This document shows, one piece after another, positions 38,235 through 49,215 of a stretch of 64,000 nt of DNA. Position 1 is the first letter of the stretch, and the number at the start of each line of letters is the position of its first letter. The stretch covers positions 2,144,936-2,208,935 of the forward strand of contig NC_007796.1 of NCBI RefSeq assembly GCF_000013445.1, written 5' to 3'. The position numbers and the translations under genes were made by a program. This DNA comes from Methanospirillum hungatei JF-1 (GTDB lineage Archaea > Halobacteriota > Methanomicrobia > Methanomicrobiales > Methanospirillaceae). Below the pieces are notes generated by a model. The model had not been told where the DNA came from and searched no databases. It worked only from the letters and a program-made list of their open reading frames with translations.

Positions 38235-39506
38235 ATGCACGCTGATATGGCTGTAGATCCGGATGAGAGCCGGTTCGATGAGGGGATATCGCTTATTAAA
38301 GCGGGAAAGATAGAAGAAGCGATTGATATCTTTTCTGAACTGGTAGAGAAGGATGATCGGAATCATAAAGCCTGGAATGCGTATGGGGTGGCTTTATCCC
38401 AGACAATCCATAAAGAGAGTGCAATTCATTGTTTTGAAAATGCCCTGCAGTTGGATCCTGATAACAAAATCTATCAGCGAAATCTGAACAGAACAAAAAA
38501 TCCCCCTTCAAAGAAAACTATCAGAAAAAAGGCTGAACTGACACCTCATAAGTCCGGGAAAAGATGGATAGCCCCTGCTGTTCTCCTCCTTCTGGCGGGA
38601 GTGGCAGTATTAATCGTATCCGGTCTGGTGCCGGGAGTCTCGGTCTCAGATCAGGTACGCAGTCTTATTCCTGGATCAGGGCCGGTTGAGGAGGTCCCGG
38701 TCATTACACCAGAACCGGTCATCACTCCTGAAGTCACACCCGAACCAACTCCTGAACCGACACCGGTTCCTACACCCCTGCCTGAACCTGAAACCCTGTT
38801 CCATTTCATTGATGTCAGTCAGGGTGATGCAGCCCTGATACAGAGCGAAGGCAAAAACATGCTCATTGATGCCGGTCCGAAGAGCTCAGGTCCGCGCCTT
38901 GTTGAGTATCTGAAACGTCAGAATGTGACCTCCCTGGATTACGTTGTCGCGTCTCACCCGTTTGATGATCATATCGGCGGGATGGTTGATGTTCTCAAGG
39001 CCTTTGAAGTCAGGACGTATGTGGATAACGGAATGACACATACATCTGACCTGTACAAAGACGTCATAAATGCCGTAATATCAGATCAGGCGGTCAGGAT
39101 GATCGTCACTGCAGGTATGAATATTCCCTTTACCAATACGACAAAAGTGGATATTATCGGGCCGCACCGTCTGACCGGTCACCAGGATACAGACTCGCTG
39201 GTCCTCCGGGTCACCATGAATAATGTCTCCGTCATCTTTCCCGGTGATTCATCAGAAGTTCGAGGGCCTGCAACCATACTAAAACTCCCTGACCATGGAT
39301 CAGATGCAGGAATCGGTCCTATTATGAATACCAGACCTGAAGCGGTTGTCATCTCGCTGGCATCGGGCAATCCGTTCGGATATCCCCGGTCTGCAACCCT
39401 TACTGAGATTATGAAACAGGGTGCACAGGTATTCAGAACGGATGTAAATGGGACCATCGTTATCAGGACCAATGGCGAAAACTGGACCGCAAAAACGGTA
39501 CGCTGA
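38235..39506 (+). CDS. TPR - membrane helix - metallo-beta-lactamase (ComEC-type) fusion
   Basis: A protein of 423 residues with three parts. Residues 10-85 form two TPR units (AIDIFSELVEKDDRNHKAWN; AIHCFENALQLDPDN). Residues 112-130 are a membrane helix (APAVLLLLAGVAVLIVSGL), followed by a Pro/Thr/Glu stalk. From about residue 190 an extracytoplasmic metallo-beta-lactamase domain of ComEC C-terminal type follows: FIDVSQGDAALIQSEGKNML, ASHPFDDHIGGM (the H-x-x-x-DDH metal site) and VIFPGDSSE. Such domains hydrolyse phosphodiesters, possibly nucleic acids, outside the cell. ATG at 38247 is an alternative start. Confidence 0.82.
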   Translation: MHADMAVDPDESRFDEGISLIKAGKIEEAIDIFSELVEKDDRNHKAWNAYGVALSQTIHKESAIHCFENALQLDPDNKIYQRNLNRTKNPPSKKTIRKKAELTPHKSGKRWIAPAVLLLLAGVAVLIVSGLVPGVSVSDQVRSLIPGSGPVEEVPVITPEPVITPEVTPEPTPEPTPVPTPLPEPETLFHFIDVSQGDAALIQSEGKNMLIDAGPKSSGPRLVEYLKRQNVTSLDYVVASHPFDDHIGGMVDVLKAFEVRTYVDNGMTHTSDLYKDVINAVISDQAVRMIVTAGMNIPFTNTTKVDIIGPHRLTGHQDTDSLVLRVTMNNVSVIFPGDSSEVRGPATILKLPDHGSDAGIGPIMNTRPEAVVISLASGNPFGYPRSATLTEIMKQGAQVFRTDVNGTIVIRTNGENWTAKTVR

Positions 39507-41416: not shown

Positions 41417-43354
41417 ATGATTCAAGCTGTGAATGATATGACCAGGCATATCGGATGGGTATTTGTTACATGTTTCATTCTTCTAATCTGGTGTAATGCA
41501 TCAGCTGAACCGATTTCCGGATGGCATCCCTCAGCCCGCGATTACTTTACTGTACCAGGATCAGGACAGGTAGAAAACGGAGGAGCCGTCCCGATTATCC
41601 CAATGCCGGTAGAGAATCGTACGACGCAACGTGAGAATATTTCTGCGTCTTCGGTTGGATATGCATCGGAGGGGGTGAATATCTCTGCACCAGCACGAGA
41701 AGCACGAATCCTGGTCAGGTATAATACCTCTGAAGTGTCCGCCCTTGCAGATGTGGAGATTGAAGGGGTTGCTCTCACGGAGGACCTGAGCTCCAGTCTG
41801 TCTGGTCTTGTGCTGTATTCAACCAGGGGAAAGAGCGAGGAAGAAGCAATAACTGCTCTGTCTGCCCTCCCCGGGGTTCTCTATGCCGAACCGGATTATA
41901 TCGTATCCATTGACCGGACTCCGGATGATCCTGAACTCTGGCGGCAGTGGGGGATTGCAAATACCGGTCAGGTCTACCGGGAGAATACCCCTGCCGGAAA
42001 GGCCGGTGCAGATGGAAACGTGCTCAATGCCTGGAATATGACCACCAGTTCAGGGGATGTTATCGTTGCGGTCCTTGATACCGGGATCGACTATAATCAT
42101 CCTGACCTGAAATCTAATATGTGGACCGGCTCTTCAGGAGAACACGGGTTTAATGTCATAACCCAGACACAGGATCCGATGGATGACAACGGGCATGGAA
42201 CCCATTGTGCGGGGATCATTGGTGCTGTCGGCAATAACGGGGTGGGGGGATCTGGTATCGCCTGGCAGACAAAACTGATGGCCATCAAGGCAATCGGAGC
42301 GGATGGAAAGGCATACACGTCAGATATCATCAAGGGAATCGAATATGCAACCAAGGCCGGTGCAGATATCATCAGTTGTTCTTTTGGTGGATCTGATAGT
42401 TCTCAAGGGTTATATGATGCAATAGCAGAATCTCCTGCTCTCTTTGTATGTGCAGCAGGAAACCAGGGTAAAAACAATGATCAGACACCTCATTACCCTT
42501 CATCATTCCAGCTTCCCAATATTATCGGTGTTGCTGCGACCACCTCATCCGACACGCTTGTTTCGACCTCAAATTACGGGACCACGGTTCATCTTGCCGC
42601 TCCCGGAGAGGATTTGTACAGTACAGCCCTTTCTGTGCCAGGTGGGGGACAATACCGGTACATGACCGGGACCTCACAGGCGACCGCGTTCGTGGCCGGG
42701 ATGGCATCCCTTGTGAAGAGCCTTGACAGCAGTCTCTCGAATGAGGAGATCCGATCGCTCATGATATCTCATTCAGATGCCGTCCCTGCATTACAGGGGA
42801 AAGTCGCCGCACAGGGACGGGTGAACCTTGGTGCTACCCTCGAAAGCCTTTCGGGTGAGGACGCAATTCCCCTGCACCAGGGATGGAACTTTGTATCGGT
42901 GCCACGGCCACTCGCACCAGGGAAAGACACGGCGCAGATATTTGGCCAGGTGAGCTCAGGTGGCCATTCTGTCCTTGAATATCTGCATGGAACCGGTTGG
43001 AAGACCCTGAAGGCTTCAGACCCAATCTCCATCATGACCGGATACTGGGTGTATTCCACAAAGGATGATTCAGTTCCGCTGCAGTATGCACCATCCCCCG
43101 GTATTATCAGAAAACAGATACAGAGTGGCTGGAACACCTGGAGCCTTCCGTTGAAAGAAGCAGAGAAGGCAAAGACAGCACTCTCCCCGATTCAGAGCAT
43201 CTGGAAATATGTGGTCGGGTATGACGCACCCCTTCAGCAGTATGAAAGCCCCATCCTGAATGGCGGTTCAGGAGATCAGAGTGATGAACGGCTTGTGAAA
43301 CCTCATCAGGGGTACTGGCTCTATAGTGCAGGGGAAGGGGAGATTACCGGATAA
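41417..43354 (+). CDS. subtilisin-like serine protease (S8) with C-terminal surface module
   Basis: A protein of 645 residues with a signal peptide (GWVFVTCFILLIWCNASA), an I9-like propeptide (about 95-165) and an S8 catalytic domain with the triad seen as VAVLDTGIDYNHPD (Asp), DDNGHGTHCAGIIG (His) and YMTGTSQATAFVAGM (Ser). From about residue 487 a module of 159 residues begins HQGWNFVSVPRPL and contains repeated GYW/GWN patterns; the DUF3821-like protein encoded at 47341 ends in a homologous module. An extracellular, probably surface-bound protease. ATG at 41438 is an alternative start. Confidence 0.93.
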   Translation: MIQAVNDMTRHIGWVFVTCFILLIWCNASAEPISGWHPSARDYFTVPGSGQVENGGAVPIIPMPVENRTTQRENISASSVGYASEGVNISAPAREARILVRYNTSEVSALADVEIEGVALTEDLSSSLSGLVLYSTRGKSEEEAITALSALPGVLYAEPDYIVSIDRTPDDPELWRQWGIANTGQVYRENTPAGKAGADGNVLNAWNMTTSSGDVIVAVLDTGIDYNHPDLKSNMWTGSSGEHGFNVITQTQDPMDDNGHGTHCAGIIGAVGNNGVGGSGIAWQTKLMAIKAIGADGKAYTSDIIKGIEYATKAGADIISCSFGGSDSSQGLYDAIAESPALFVCAAGNQGKNNDQTPHYPSSFQLPNIIGVAATTSSDTLVSTSNYGTTVHLAAPGEDLYSTALSVPGGGQYRYMTGTSQATAFVAGMASLVKSLDSSLSNEEIRSLMISHSDAVPALQGKVAAQGRVNLGATLESLSGEDAIPLHQGWNFVSVPRPLAPGKDTAQIFGQVSSGGHSVLEYLHGTGWKTLKASDPISIMTGYWVYSTKDDSVPLQYAPSPGIIRKQIQSGWNTWSLPLKEAEKAKTALSPIQSIWKYVVGYDAPLQQYESPILNGGSGDQSDERLVKPHQGYWLYSAGEGEITG

Positions 43355-43359
43355 TATCT

Positions 43360-44334
43360 CTAATCCGGGTAATTTCTGATAATTAACTCGTTAATATCTC
43401 CTCTTTTTTCACCAACGCTGTTGATAAACCGTTTTGCAAGTACCCGTTCAATCAGAAAATCTTTGTACAGATCATCAAAGAAATGGTCGGCTGGGTCCTC
43501 ATTTCTCGGATCAGAATTTGAGAGCATCACCTTTGCACCAGTGTTAGCCACCGCCCCATAAAAATCGCGAAGCCTGAGCTGGTCCTGCTCTGAAAACCCT
43601 TCCTGTGAGTAACTGGTGAAGGATGAGGTCTTATTTAATGGGCGATAGGGGGGATCAAGATATACAAAAGAACTTCTGTCAACATACTCAAGACAGGTGG
43701 TAAAGTCGCCCTGTATGATGGTTGTATGGGTGAGGAGGTTGGAAGCCATCAGGAGGTTTTTTTCCTGAACGATATTGGGATTTTTATACTTCCCGAATGG
43801 AACGTTGAACTCTCCTTTTGAGTTCAGCCTGAAAAGTCCGTTAAAGCAGGTTCTATTCAGAAAGAGTAACTGCGATGCCCGTTGTATGGTATGATCCCCG
43901 TATGTGTTGTAATCAAAAGAGGGTTTTTCCCGGTTCAGATCATCACGGACCTGGTAAAAGAGATTGAGCCTCTCGGCCTCAGTTCGGGTATCATATGCAT
44001 CCTGCAGTTCCTGAAGGAGCCTGATGAGGGTCTTGACATCCTGTTTTACAACCTTCCAGGTCAGGATCAACTCGCTATTGACATCACAGATGACCGCTTC
44101 TTTGATCGGATAGAGCTGGACTATATAAAAAAAGACCGCCCCTCCGCCAACAAACGGCTCAACATACCGAACGAGATCACCAGTCTCCAGAGTTTTAGGA
44201 AACCGCGGATCAAATTCATACAGGAGCTGACTCTTTCCCCCCGCCCATTTAAAAAACGGTTTTGCATATTCCTCATCGCCTTTAGTCCGTCGCCCACGTA
44301 TTGACTTTATCAGATTCTGTCTGCCTTTTTTCAT
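43360..44334 (-). CDS. DNA adenine methylase (Dam/DpnM class)
   Basis: A protein of 324 residues that would methylate adenine-N6 in DNA. The class D12 motifs are in order: KPFFKWAGGKSQLL near residue 26, EPFVGGGAVFF (SAM site) near residue 58, DVNSELI, and the catalytic FVYLDPPYRP near residue 211. No restriction endonuclease is adjacent, so it looks like an orphan methylase; its recognition site is unknown (DpnM relatives use GATC). It is convergent with the subtilase gene, five bases away. Confidence 0.93.
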   Translation of the reverse strand: MKKGRQNLIKSIRGRRTKGDEEYAKPFFKWAGGKSQLLYEFDPRFPKTLETGDLVRYVEPFVGGGAVFFYIVQLYPIKEAVICDVNSELILTWKVVKQDVKTLIRLLQELQDAYDTRTEAERLNLFYQVRDDLNREKPSFDYNTYGDHTIQRASQLLFLNRTCFNGLFRLNSKGEFNVPFGKYKNPNIVQEKNLLMASNLLTHTTIIQGDFTTCLEYVDRSSFVYLDPPYRPLNKTSSFTSYSQEGFSEQDQLRLRDFYGAVANTGAKVMLSNSDPRNEDPADHFFDDLYKDFLIERVLAKRFINSVGEKRGDINELIIRNYPD

Positions 44335-44408
44335 GAACCCTGTAGTATGTGGATCTGATAGGACATAATTCGGACGGGTTATAACTATTCAATTCATATG
44401 TATAACAA

Positions 44409-45917
44409 ATGAAGAATTTTTTTTGTCTGCTTCTGGGCCTGGTGGTAGGCGGCCTGATTCTGGCCATGCCCGGAGATCTCTTCATATCATGGGAAATTCA
44501 GGCGACGGCGGCTGTAACCACACTTATGGTCATCTGGTGGATAACAGAGGCAATGCCAATACCTGCAACCGCACTCGTCCCGCTCGTCGGGTTTCCCCTG
44601 CTCGGTGTTCTTACTCCGGCCGAAGCATCGGCGCCCTATGCAGATAAGACCATCTTCCTCTTTCTTGGCGGGTTTATCATTGCGGCAGCCATGCAGAAGT
44701 GGAACCTGCATCGAAGGATCGCCCTTACTATAATTCTTCTCACCGGAACAAGTCCGAAACAGATCATCCTGGGCTTTATGATCGCAACCGCCTTCATCTC
44801 ACTCTGGATCTCGAACACGGCGACTGCGATGATGATGATCCCGATTGCGGTGGCTATCATCGGCACTGTCGGGATGGATGTATTCAAAGAGAAGGAAAAA
44901 GATGAAGGGGTTTCTGACTTTGCAAAGGCCCTGGTCATCTCTATCGCCTATGCAGCATCGATTGGTGGTCTTGGAACCATCATCGGTTCACCACCAAACG
45001 GGATCTTCCTTGCCCAGCTCAAGACCCTGTTTCCTGATGCCCCGACCATAGGATTTGTTGACTGGATGCTCTTTGGTATCCCGCTGGTTGCCATCTTCAT
45101 CCCCCTCACCTGGTTCTGGCTTGTGTACGGACCGTTCAGGCACCTGCCTGCAAAACTTCCCCAGAGTCGTGAGATCATAACCGAAGAGCTGAAGAAATTA
45201 GGACGGATAACCACTGGTGAGCGGTGGACGTTGATCGTCTTTGTCATGACAGCTCTGATGTGGATCTTTTCAGCAACGAAAAAGATCGGTGATATCACCA
45301 TACCAGGTCTTGATATCCTCTTCCCCGGTATTGATGACTCAACCATCGCTATGTTTGGAGCGATCCTTCTCTTCATCCTGCCAGTGAGCATCAAAAACCG
45401 GCAGTATACCATGGACTGGGAGTCTGCCGCCAGGATCCCCTGGGGTATTCTCCTCCTCTTTGGTGGGGGTATCTGCCTCTCAAAGGGCTTTATCAAATCA
45501 GGCCTTGCTGATGAACTGGTAAAACACCTGACTGGTCTTTCTATTCTCAATATCCTGGTCATCATATTCCTGGTGGCGGTTCTGGTATCGTTCCTGACCG
45601 AAGTAACATCCAATACCGCCATTGCCTCGGTTATGATGCCCATCCTTGCTGTCACATCCGTCAGTCTGATGATAAACCCGATTATTCTCATGCTCACCGC
45701 AGCCCTGACTGCATCGTTGGCATTTATGCTGCCGGTTGCAACCCCGCCCAATGCCGTGGCCTATGGAACCGGGTACCTGGAGATGCGGGATATGATGCGG
45801 ACCGGTTTTATCCTGAATATGATTGGGGTTGTTCTGGTTACCCTGTTTATGTATACGGTGGTACTCTGGGCTCTTGGGATCACCTTTGAGCTACCTTCCT
45901 GGGCAGTTGCCCCCTAA
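44409..45917 (+). CDS. SLC13/DASS family anion:sodium symporter
   Basis: A membrane protein of 502 residues with about twelve helices. The two SNT motifs that bind sodium and carboxylate are present, WISNTATAMMMIP near residue 137 and TEVTSNTAIASVMMP near residue 400, as is a helix-hairpin GGLGTIIGSPPN. DASS transporters import di- or tricarboxylates or sulfate; which one is unknown. It is divergent from the adenine methylase gene with about 75 bases between, containing TATAACTATTC-like AT-rich elements. Confidence 0.93.
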   Translation: MKNFFCLLLGLVVGGLILAMPGDLFISWEIQATAAVTTLMVIWWITEAMPIPATALVPLVGFPLLGVLTPAEASAPYADKTIFLFLGGFIIAAAMQKWNLHRRIALTIILLTGTSPKQIILGFMIATAFISLWISNTATAMMMIPIAVAIIGTVGMDVFKEKEKDEGVSDFAKALVISIAYAASIGGLGTIIGSPPNGIFLAQLKTLFPDAPTIGFVDWMLFGIPLVAIFIPLTWFWLVYGPFRHLPAKLPQSREIITEELKKLGRITTGERWTLIVFVMTALMWIFSATKKIGDITIPGLDILFPGIDDSTIAMFGAILLFILPVSIKNRQYTMDWESAARIPWGILLLFGGGICLSKGFIKSGLADELVKHLTGLSILNILVIIFLVAVLVSFLTEVTSNTAIASVMMPILAVTSVSLMINPIILMLTAALTASLAFMLPVATPPNAVAYGTGYLEMRDMMRTGFILNMIGVVLVTLFMYTVVLWALGITFELPSWAVAP

Positions 45918-46145
45918 AAACCCGATTTTTTTCTTGAAAATAATAAATAAGCGCCACATTGATCTCGTTTTAGAGATATGGATCAATTTCATAAGAAACT
46001 ACTTAAAAACCGGGGCACGAGGTACTGAGAGGCTCACAGGGAATCCGGTCATATGAGTACTGGTGAAGCTATCCGTATGAAGGATTCATCTGTGACCATC
46101 TCACTCATACAATAGTGTTGTCCCGGGTGTATAATGGAGGTATCG

Positions 46146-47246
46146 TTGACGTATCGTATTTTTTCAGCAACTGTGATTCTGCTTTTGGTGGTGTCCGGAA
46201 TTGCATATGCAGACCGGCTCCCGTCACAGGTTCCTGAAAACCAGAAGATTAGTATCTCCACGATCATCGATGTGGTCGGATTCGTGTCTGACAAGTCCTA
46301 CATGTCATGGACCATCGATGATTCAGAGACACCGGTAACGACGAAACAATTGAATAGTGGGACCGGATCCACGCCGACCGTTTTGACCGATGAGCAGGTG
46401 CGGGCACTTGCTGCTGCAAAGTCAACCATAGCAGGACTTACCTACTCGGTCGGTGCAGGAAATCAGCTCTATTCACTTACCGTACCCGATTATCTGCTGA
46501 GTGATCTGGCATTGCCCAATATCGCCCCGACCGATCCCTGGTGGGGGAAGACCTGGCAGTCCATTCTGAATACACTTGATTCATCGTCGTATTCACAGAC
46601 CCAGGATACGGAATATGGCAGTATCCATGACAGTAAGCTCAATCCGGGTGAATCGATTGCTATTGTGACATTCTCAGACAGCATCATGACCAATGGCGGC
46701 CATCTCATGCTGAACAAGGATCTCGGCTTTGACTCACAGAACAAGGGGAAGGGCCTCTCAAACCTGGAGGTTGAGAAGGTACTTACTTATGAGAGCATTG
46801 ACGGTTCATTCCTTGTCGGAAGTGAGGAATGGAGTCTTGATGTTGCCGGCAATTATGCAAATACTGATGATTCTATCAGGTGTGTCTTTGCATCGGCCAA
46901 GGAGAGTGTTATTCCGGCATTCTGTAATGTGGTAAAGGCGAAGAGCGAACTTATCAACTTCAACAGCGGGCAGGTCTCTACCAAAGGCAGCCTCCGTGCT
47001 GTTGCAGCGACAAGTGATGTTCCGGCTGGTCTCTTCTATCAGATTGCAGTCACTCCGATTCCAGGTTCAGGCTCTGGATTTGCAGAGGGAACTGTAAAGA
47101 CTGAGTTCGCCGGCTCTATCATGGAAGCCCGTGGCAAGTCTGACTCTCCATCTGCAACGAACCAGTGGTCTGACAAGACGTCTGTATCCGGTGGTATCAA
47201 GAACTTCCAAAAGACGTTCGGGTACGAGTCTGGTGTTACTATCTAA
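46146..47246 (+). CDS. secreted protein of unknown function (TTG start)
   Basis: A protein of 366 residues with a signal peptide, TYRIFSATVILLLVVSGIA, cleaved probably after AYA. The mature part is rich in Ser, Thr, Gly and Asp, and no domain is recognised. The start was set at TTG because GGAGGT ends four bases before it; the ATG 12 bases earlier overlaps that ribosome binding site. It lies before the DUF3821-like gene on the same strand and may contribute to the cell envelope. Nearly neutral composition, no membrane anchor. Confidence 0.7.
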   Translation: MTYRIFSATVILLLVVSGIAYADRLPSQVPENQKISISTIIDVVGFVSDKSYMSWTIDDSETPVTTKQLNSGTGSTPTVLTDEQVRALAAAKSTIAGLTYSVGAGNQLYSLTVPDYLLSDLALPNIAPTDPWWGKTWQSILNTLDSSSYSQTQDTEYGSIHDSKLNPGESIAIVTFSDSIMTNGGHLMLNKDLGFDSQNKGKGLSNLEVEKVLTYESIDGSFLVGSEEWSLDVAGNYANTDDSIRCVFASAKESVIPAFCNVVKAKSELINFNSGQVSTKGSLRAVAATSDVPAGLFYQIAVTPIPGSGSGFAEGTVKTEFAGSIMEARGKSDSPSATNQWSDKTSVSGGIKNFQKTFGYESGVTI

Positions 47247-47340
47247 TCCTGAAACCCTCAGGATTTGCTTTTTTTAAATGAACCTGTATTCCAGGTATTA
47301 TTCTTCGAATAATCTATAATCTCATAACGCAAAACTCCCC

Positions 47341-49215
47341 ATGGTTTATATGTCTAGGGGTTATGTGTGGATCTTTTTGTTGATACTTTGTATCATGGCA
47401 ACAGGAGGATATGCGGAAGAACAACAGGTGCCGTTTGTTTCGGCCCCTTCTCTCTCGATAACGTCAGCGTCCGGGACTGATGATCCGGTCCCCGTAGCAA
47501 CAAATGAATTGAACCCGGCTGCAGGAAACCCGGTAATTCAGGCGACTAATAAGATTGTACAGGGAGATATCGTATTTATTGGTGAAGGATCTCTGGATGT
47601 TACAAGCGCGCTAAATACCGCCGGGTATATTGCCTGGTGGCAGAGCGGAAATCTCAATCCGGCAGCTCCTGACGCTGTGATCCCGGTACCAGATCCCTAC
47701 AATTTCCGTCTTGATCCTGCTGATTTTGTTCAGAAAACCGGTGACTGGTACCAGTGGGTGGATAACCAGAAAGGAGACCTGGCCTTCAGGGTGGCGGATC
47801 CGTCTCTGTATCTGGAGATCTGGGATGCCTCAACAAATACAGATGTGACCGGAAAGACCATTCCCATGGGTAATCTTGGAACATTCTGTATTGATTCCAA
47901 CCTGTATTCCATCATGAACAGGACCGGATATCTTCCTGGAGACAGTAGTATTAAGATCACGGTGACCAGCCCGTCAGGTGATTCCCTTACCTATCTGGTC
48001 GGATTGAACGGGGCGGAGCATCCACTTACCCATCTGCAGGTTGATCTTCCCAGATGGTACTGGATTGGTCAGGGGACGGATCACTCTGTTCCGTCTCATG
48101 AAGACGGGTGGAATACCTCTGTTTCCTACCCGAACGGCACTCGTATCTACCAGCCTGGGATCTATACCGTCCGTGCTGAATGTAATGTCAATGGGATGAA
48201 GAATAATTACAAGGCTCCTGACGGGTCTGATTATGTGAATAAAACCGTCTCGATGACCCACACGGTGAACCTTGTCGATGATGCGGTTGATATCCGTGCA
48301 AGCCCTGAGCTGGTTGTGCCGGGTGAGTCTTTTGCGACGATCATCACCGGTCTCCCTCATAATGAGTATTATCTCTGGATGAAAGGGACCGGGACCATGA
48401 CCGGACAGCCAGGGGATCAGCCACCGGTGATTGCACTCATGCAGGATAATGTAGTACATGATGCACCTTCGGGGCCCTATCTCATCGGTGATTATGTATT
48501 TTCTGACGGAGGAGGCAAAACCATCAGGAATGATGTCCCTCGCGATCCCACCTGGAACGGAACACAGTTCTATGGCATGGTCAAACTTGATGCGACCGGA
48601 ACCAGAACCGTTTACTGGAATACGAGTGCGGCAACAAAACCAGGTTCCTATACCCCGGCGGTTGAAAAAAGAACCCTTTCCGGGTATGTCAGTGATACCT
48701 GTATGCTCTCGGTGGATACCGGTAATGTAAGTTCATTAAATCTGTTATCCGGATGGAATTTTATCTCAACGCCGAAAACCCTGTCACCCGGCCATAATAC
48801 GATGGCAATCTTCTCCGGGATCAACTCATCAGGGCATTCCATATTTACCTATGATAGCACTACGTCCTCATGGGTTACTATGAAATCAGAAGACCCGTTC
48901 TCACCATTAACCGGGTTCTGGCTCTATTCTGTCCAACCGACGACGATACCACTTATATCTGACAATGCAACCGTTGTTCCCCGGACTCTGGTAAAGGGGT
49001 GGAACAGTATCGGCATCACCGCTCCGGACAGAATTGCTGCCACAGTTTTGCAGCCGCTCGGGGAGGCCTGGTCATATCTCATCGGGTATGATGCACAGGT
49101 TCAGCAGTACAGAAATCCGCTGGTTCTCGGAGATCCAGCAGTAAACACCACAACGCTGTATACAAAAGAGGGATATTGGATATATGTAAAAGAGAACCTG
49201 ACCTTCTCAGGGTGA
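47341..49215 (+). CDS. DUF3821-like cell-surface protein with C-terminal shared module
   Basis: A protein of 624 residues. It has a signal peptide (WIFLLILCIMATGGYAEE), then a region resembling the Methanomicrobiales DUF3821 family (IVQGDIVFIGEGSLDVTSAL, YIAWWQSGN, residues about 70-330), then Ig-like strands. The last 156 residues, from LSGWNFISTPKTL to the end, align with the C-terminus of the subtilase encoded at 41417 (GWN...GYW patterns, GYDAQVQQY versus GYDAPLQQY). It probably sits in the envelope or S-layer. ATG three codons later is an alternative start. Confidence 0.8.
   Translation: MVYMSRGYVWIFLLILCIMATGGYAEEQQVPFVSAPSLSITSASGTDDPVPVATNELNPAAGNPVIQATNKIVQGDIVFIGEGSLDVTSALNTAGYIAWWQSGNLNPAAPDAVIPVPDPYNFRLDPADFVQKTGDWYQWVDNQKGDLAFRVADPSLYLEIWDASTNTDVTGKTIPMGNLGTFCIDSNLYSIMNRTGYLPGDSSIKITVTSPSGDSLTYLVGLNGAEHPLTHLQVDLPRWYWIGQGTDHSVPSHEDGWNTSVSYPNGTRIYQPGIYTVRAECNVNGMKNNYKAPDGSDYVNKTVSMTHTVNLVDDAVDIRASPELVVPGESFATIITGLPHNEYYLWMKGTGTMTGQPGDQPPVIALMQDNVVHDAPSGPYLIGDYVFSDGGGKTIRNDVPRDPTWNGTQFYGMVKLDATGTRTVYWNTSAATKPGSYTPAVEKRTLSGYVSDTCMLSVDTGNVSSLNLLSGWNFISTPKTLSPGHNTMAIFSGINSSGHSIFTYDSTTSSWVTMKSEDPFSPLTGFWLYSVQPTTIPLISDNATVVPRTLVKGWNSIGITAPDRIAATVLQPLGEAWSYLIGYDAQVQQYRNPLVLGDPAVNTTTLYTKEGYWIYVKENLTFSG

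Follow-up and report, generated by a model that had tools for sequence, protein, structure and literature searches.

What sequence feature is shared by two otherwise unrelated secreted-type proteins encoded near each other in Methanospirillum hungatei JF-1, and what might it do for them? The window, i.e., the whole stretch of 64,000 nucleotides that we analyzed, spans positions 2144936-2208935 of a single 3,544,738-base contig. One of the two proteins is a secreted-type subtilase of 645 aa (41417..43354, forward strand; PF00082 at residues 214-453, E 1.7e-58), with a hydrophobic stretch at its N-terminus and no downstream membrane helix by hydropathy. The other is a secreted-type protein of 624 aa (47341..49215, forward strand) with an S-layer-type DUF3821 domain (PF12863 at residues 74-288, E 5.3e-71), whose 239.2 bits against a cut-off of 23 place it in that family; the NCBIfam S_layer_MEMAR profile (NF041431) covers only residues 64-464 with 237.8 bits, below its cut-off of 600.

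A conserved module with two homologous halves

A sequence-only reading of this DNA had proposed that both proteins end in one and the same module, and alignment bears this out. Copy A (residues 484-645 of the subtilase; 42866..43351, forward strand) and copy B (residues 466-624 of the DUF3821 protein; 48736..49212, forward strand) align over 153 columns with 37% identity (subtilase residues 486-636 versus DUF3821 residues 468-615; E 9e-30), at a local score of 297 as against 32 ± 6 (maximum 56) in 1000 shuffles. A genome-wide search recovered 15 full copies and one decayed fragment, the latter comprising a second half of 79 aa at 1453357-1453596 with frame breaks upstream of it. The motifs singled out in that reading (GWNF, GYW/GFW..YS, a second GWN, W.Y..GYDA..QQY and GYW.Y) are all present and aligned over the 15 genomic copies, with eight invariant columns (G9, W10, N11, G91, W92, A105, W116 and Q127 in copy A numbering); the poor profile alignment that it had allowed for as a contrary outcome did not occur.

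Through profile-profile comparison, we found the two GWN...GYW blocks to be homologous to each other (hhalign E 2.7e-10, probability 96.8), pointing to an internal duplication as the origin of the approximately 160-residue module. In copy A, the first half-repeat (GWNF...GYWVYS) lies at 42866..43108 and the second (GWNT...GYDAPLQQY...GYWLYS) at 43109..43351, both on the forward strand and with approximate boundaries from the half-versus-half comparison; the second half-repeat of copy B (48985..49212, forward strand) was placed with equally approximate boundaries by alignment and the same comparison. Part of the C-terminal tail shows conservation when counted back from the stop: in 50 modules filtered to below 70% identity, leucine occupies position -6 in 34, alanine position -4 in 30, isoleucine position -3 in 31, and serine or glycine position -2 in 36. 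The last six residues read LAAISA, LAAIGA or alike in register with the stop codon in many carriers (e.g., L063, L096, L106, L109 and other relatives).

The module is rich in tryptophan and tyrosine. Structure prediction, which the sequence-only reading had proposed as a check, gave a confident all-β AlphaFold2 model for copy A (pLDDT 96.0, pTM 0.89). Sequence and structure searches recovered no credible family for it in Pfam, NCBIfam, PHROGs or the PDB; the module is an uncatalogued domain. Against the PDB, its model had no Foldseek match at E ≤ 0.001 and a best VIA-align Z of 4.6 over 69 residues, and we assign it to no known PDB fold, as neither kind of search yielded anything credible. Weak Pfam matches on single modules to Kelch_1 (E 0.0018) and Malic_M (E 0.0078) were likewise set aside for want of consistent support. 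Searches of phages, plasmids and viral contigs found no close relatives. The predicted fold of a "putative hemin binding protein" from an uncultured marine phage (BFVD A0A8D9C8P8) does resemble that of the module (Foldseek E 1.1e-4, TM-score 0.68 on the query); however, identity is 14%, the match lies inside a 587-residue protein, and the annotation is itself putative. A single-query search of genome contigs with the module recovered three Methanospirillum-related loci only, and a literature search of incomplete coverage found no described GWN domain.

Carriers are diverse, apparently secreted, and bear the module at their C-termini

As had been noted for the two window proteins, the module follows N-terminal regions of unrelated kinds. 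The carriers in the host genome include five subtilases, a papain-type protease that also has lectin-like, NosD and PKD domains, PKD proteins, a further two proteins that combine PKD with propeller-like repeats (the repeats judged by eye), three DUF3821 proteins, of which two have PKD domains as well, a cohesin protein, and a protein extending scarcely beyond a signal and the module. Of 81 distinct ORFs from the host genome and relatives, a few of which are fragments, 80 have just 1-5 residues between the module and the stop. In the exception (L108, from a relative), it is N-terminal, ahead of a metallo-β-lactamase domain with 32% identity to a window protein (38235-39506) that has a membrane helix and TPR-like repeats in place of the module; in that protein the metallo-β-lactamase domain is of the ComEC type, and the helix and TPR-like repeats were judged by eye.

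Complete carriers nearly all begin with a hydrophobic stretch, and no carrier has a membrane helix after the module: by a simple window measure of hydropathy (rather than SignalP), values beyond the N-terminus peak at 1.7, under those of a usual membrane helix. With the exception of L097:1442-4012, the few ORFs that apparently lack a signal are explained by the start chosen, by gaps or by fragmentation. By these features the carriers look secreted, and cytoplasmic carriers, the other contrary outcome that had been envisaged, were not encountered.

The module alternates with other C-terminal devices

The 11 DUF3821 ORFs of the host genome differ in their C-termini: one has a PGF-CTERM, three a membrane helix (identified by eye), three the module, and four nothing obvious, with none combining the module and an anchor. 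The PGF-CTERM profile (PF18204) has a single match above its cut-off in this genome; it falls on the ORF presumed to encode the main S-layer protein, which is reported to bear this element in M. hungatei (PMC11641113). Like the module, PGF-CTERM/archaeosortase substrates are C-terminally marked, secreted archaeal surface proteins, the main S-layer protein of M. hungatei among them; however, PGF-CTERM is a processed short motif with a membrane helix, whereas the module is a soluble folded domain of about 160 residues. The module also falls outside the PGF-CTERM definition (a PGF motif followed by a membrane helix), as it has no helix and only 1-5 residues to the stop. Among subtilases, the window protein and a second one from the host genome are 43% identical over the catalytic part, with one ending in the module and the other in a dockerin; homologs in relatives end in the module, in dockerin-like repeats, or in neither. 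Judged by these architectures, the module alternates with a membrane helix or PGF-CTERM in DUF3821 paralogs and with dockerin in subtilases.

The N-terminal domain of the cohesin-bearing carrier (L011) scores 24.6 bits with the cohesin profile PF00963 in the full protein and 22.4 for the domain alone (cut-off 24.1), and its predicted fold matches solved cohesins (Foldseek E 4.3e-11); profile, if marginal, and modeled fold together identify it as a cohesin. Upstream of the L011 ORF, and sharing 4 bp with it, lies one whose product ends in a dockerin-like sequence (L023:4282-6881); two Asp/Asn-rich EF-hand-like repeats are visible in that sequence, and the PF00404 scores of 21.0 and 18.1 bits lie below the cut-off of 22.9. 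This pair has the layout of a minimal scaffoldin-like system in a methanogen, with the module putatively in the place of SLH. As in SLH-bearing cellulosome anchoring scaffoldins, a cohesin is fused to a C-terminal domain presumed to attach to the surface, here next to a protein with a dockerin-like end; unlike them, L011 is archaeal, has no SLH match, and would attach through the module. A dockerin-like sequence is also seen C-terminal to MspA-like sheath-core repeats (profile i-E 3.6e-12) in another host-genome ORF (L171:1480-3006; at about 999.9 kb).

Links to the sheath, and distribution beyond it

Two DUF3821 S-layer paralogs, Mhun_0425, with about 100 extra N-terminal residues, and Mhun_0424, have been reported in enriched sheath preparations (PMC11641113). 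One module-bearing DUF3821 ORF (L013; 488530-492240) has such an N-terminal extension, its domain starting at residue 143; the ORF adjoining it upstream (L016) also bears the module, which the DUF3821 ORF next in line upstream lacks. By gene position and the extension of about 100 residues, from which we tentatively assign the tags, these two carriers fit Mhun_0425 and Mhun_0424. Within the window, the DUF3821 carrier adjoins a 370-aa ORF with two cysteines and no module (46134..47246, forward strand) that shares 56% identity (E 2.7e-110) with the ORF presumed to be MspA on the same contig (2536906-2538024), and is by this homology assigned to the MspA family as a putative sheath-protein paralog. 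Its length and its two cysteines match the description of WP_011448920.1 in PMC6242892, and it is probably this protein, which is named among the proteins listed with purified sheath (PMC6242892). The pair of MspA paralog and DUF3821 carrier is kept in M. hungatei M59 and M. stamsii Pt1; in two other congeners, the subtilase and the MspA paralog persist with no DUF3821 carrier adjoining the latter. Directly 3' of the MspA paralog is a terminator-like hairpin with a T run (47245-47265), of a kind whose number is about that expected by chance. We do not claim an operon, given this intervening hairpin and the retention of the pair by only some congeners; adjacency is not proof of co-transcription.

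The module occurs in 116 of 232 genomes of the order Methanomicrobiales, with 7-15 copies per Methanospirillum genome, and MspA homologs in 52, all in the host family. In that family, 46 genomes have both, six (all incomplete) MspA only, four the module only, and 52 neither (Fisher p 5e-19, taking the counted genomes as the whole family), an association in which shared ancestry is a confounder. Methanoregula is noted to lack sheath proteins (PMC11576556). Outside the host family, 66 genomes from four other families have the module with no detectable MspA, one of 31 tested distant module-bearing genomes has MspA, and diverged full-length forms, mostly C-terminal too, are found across the phylum. 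With half of the order carrying the module, many genomes without MspA, and diverged forms phylum-wide, it is not specific to the sheath, and we rejected a sheath-only role as its general function.

A probable envelope-attachment domain

We favor, as reasonably probable, the interpretation that the module is a folded C-terminal domain for non-covalent attachment to the envelope. Secretion-type N-termini, the C-terminal position, the duplication, the all-β model and the exchange with membrane anchors and dockerin are supported computationally; from them we infer envelope binding, its partner and its non-covalent nature. The argument draws on the joining of the module to unrelated secreted N-termini, in 15 full copies within one genome; the near-invariable C-terminal placement, hydrophobic N-termini and stop-registered tail; the alternative C-termini of DUF3821 proteins, never with module and anchor together, and of subtilases; the anchoring-scaffoldin layout of the cohesin-module protein beside its dockerin-like neighbor; and the two carriers that fit the paralogs from sheath preparations. 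Mechanistically, an N-terminal signal peptide would export the carrier, whereupon the tandem β domain at its extreme C-terminus could bind an outer-envelope component non-covalently, be it a protein of the S-layer, sheath or plug or a glycan on such a protein, and the bound module would hold the enzymatic or structural part of the carrier on the cell surface with neither a membrane helix nor archaeosortase processing. The earlier suggestion of a surface-anchoring or sorting domain of these methanogens stands in part: surface association is well supported, if circumstantially, by the secreted and unrelated enzymes and surface proteins, the strict C-terminal position, the alternation with anchors and dockerin, and the two sheath-fitting carriers; anchoring or sorting is a further step that we infer, and restriction to sheathed methanogens does not hold.

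The N-terminal module of L108 counts against envelope attachment, as does the fact that such a domain could equally bind a substrate or partner cell. An outward-acting lectin-like or protein-binding domain, targeting carriers to substrates or partner cells instead of the cell's own envelope, would suit the aromatic-rich all-β fold and its presence on proteases and adhesion-type PKD proteins, but we consider it unlikely, as S-layer-type proteins and the cohesin scaffold are carriers with no obvious substrate, and typical binding modules take varied positions where this one is strictly C-terminal. The same strictness, with the tail in register with the stop codon, could instead signify that dedicated machinery reads the module as a transport or sorting signal and perhaps cleaves it off. 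The parallel would be the type IX secretion C-terminal domains, which are likewise folded β domains that form the very end of numerous unrelated secreted proteins, but those belong to another phylum, whereas the carriers come from an envelope with no outer membrane and show no sign of cleavage; further, none of 15 modules tested matched type IX or other named C-terminal sorting domains in NCBIfam or Pfam at E up to 1. As export over a single membrane needs only ordinary N-terminal signals, and the closing residues are part of a predicted strand such that tail conservation may be structural, we regard a sorting signal as quite improbable.

Binding confined to the sheath or spacer plug, through MspA-type protein or the plug lattice, would account for the co-occurrence in the host family, the window carrier next to an MspA paralog, and the two carriers fitting sheath-associated paralogs (PMC11641113); in light of the ancestry behind that co-occurrence, the 66 genomes from four other families and the single distant genome with MspA among 31, we deem it very unlikely. 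Finally, the short linker to the subtilase domain and the confident stand-alone fold would be compatible with a mere structural cap or folding aid with no binding role, a notion made scarcely credible by L005 (258 aa) and L054 (226 aa), which are essentially a signal peptide and the module and leave nothing to cap.

Envelope attachment could form part of something larger: an undescribed, phylum-wide archaeal protein-display system, in which secreted proteins would be held on a specific envelope receptor by a soluble C-terminal domain, with cohesin-dockerin pairs as an extension and with S-layer paralogs and plugs tied in this way to the sheath in Methanospirillum, is a speculative extension that we hold to be possible but doubtful. 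The way in which S-layer, sheath and end plugs connect in Methanospirillum is an open question (PMC11641113, PMC6242892). The carriers make up a short list of candidate envelope proteins, on which both of the S-layer paralogs proposed as the bridge to the sheath apparently figure, and the module makes this connection testable with one recombinant domain. If envelope attachment is true, the module would add a non-membrane means by which archaea retain secreted proteins at their surface.
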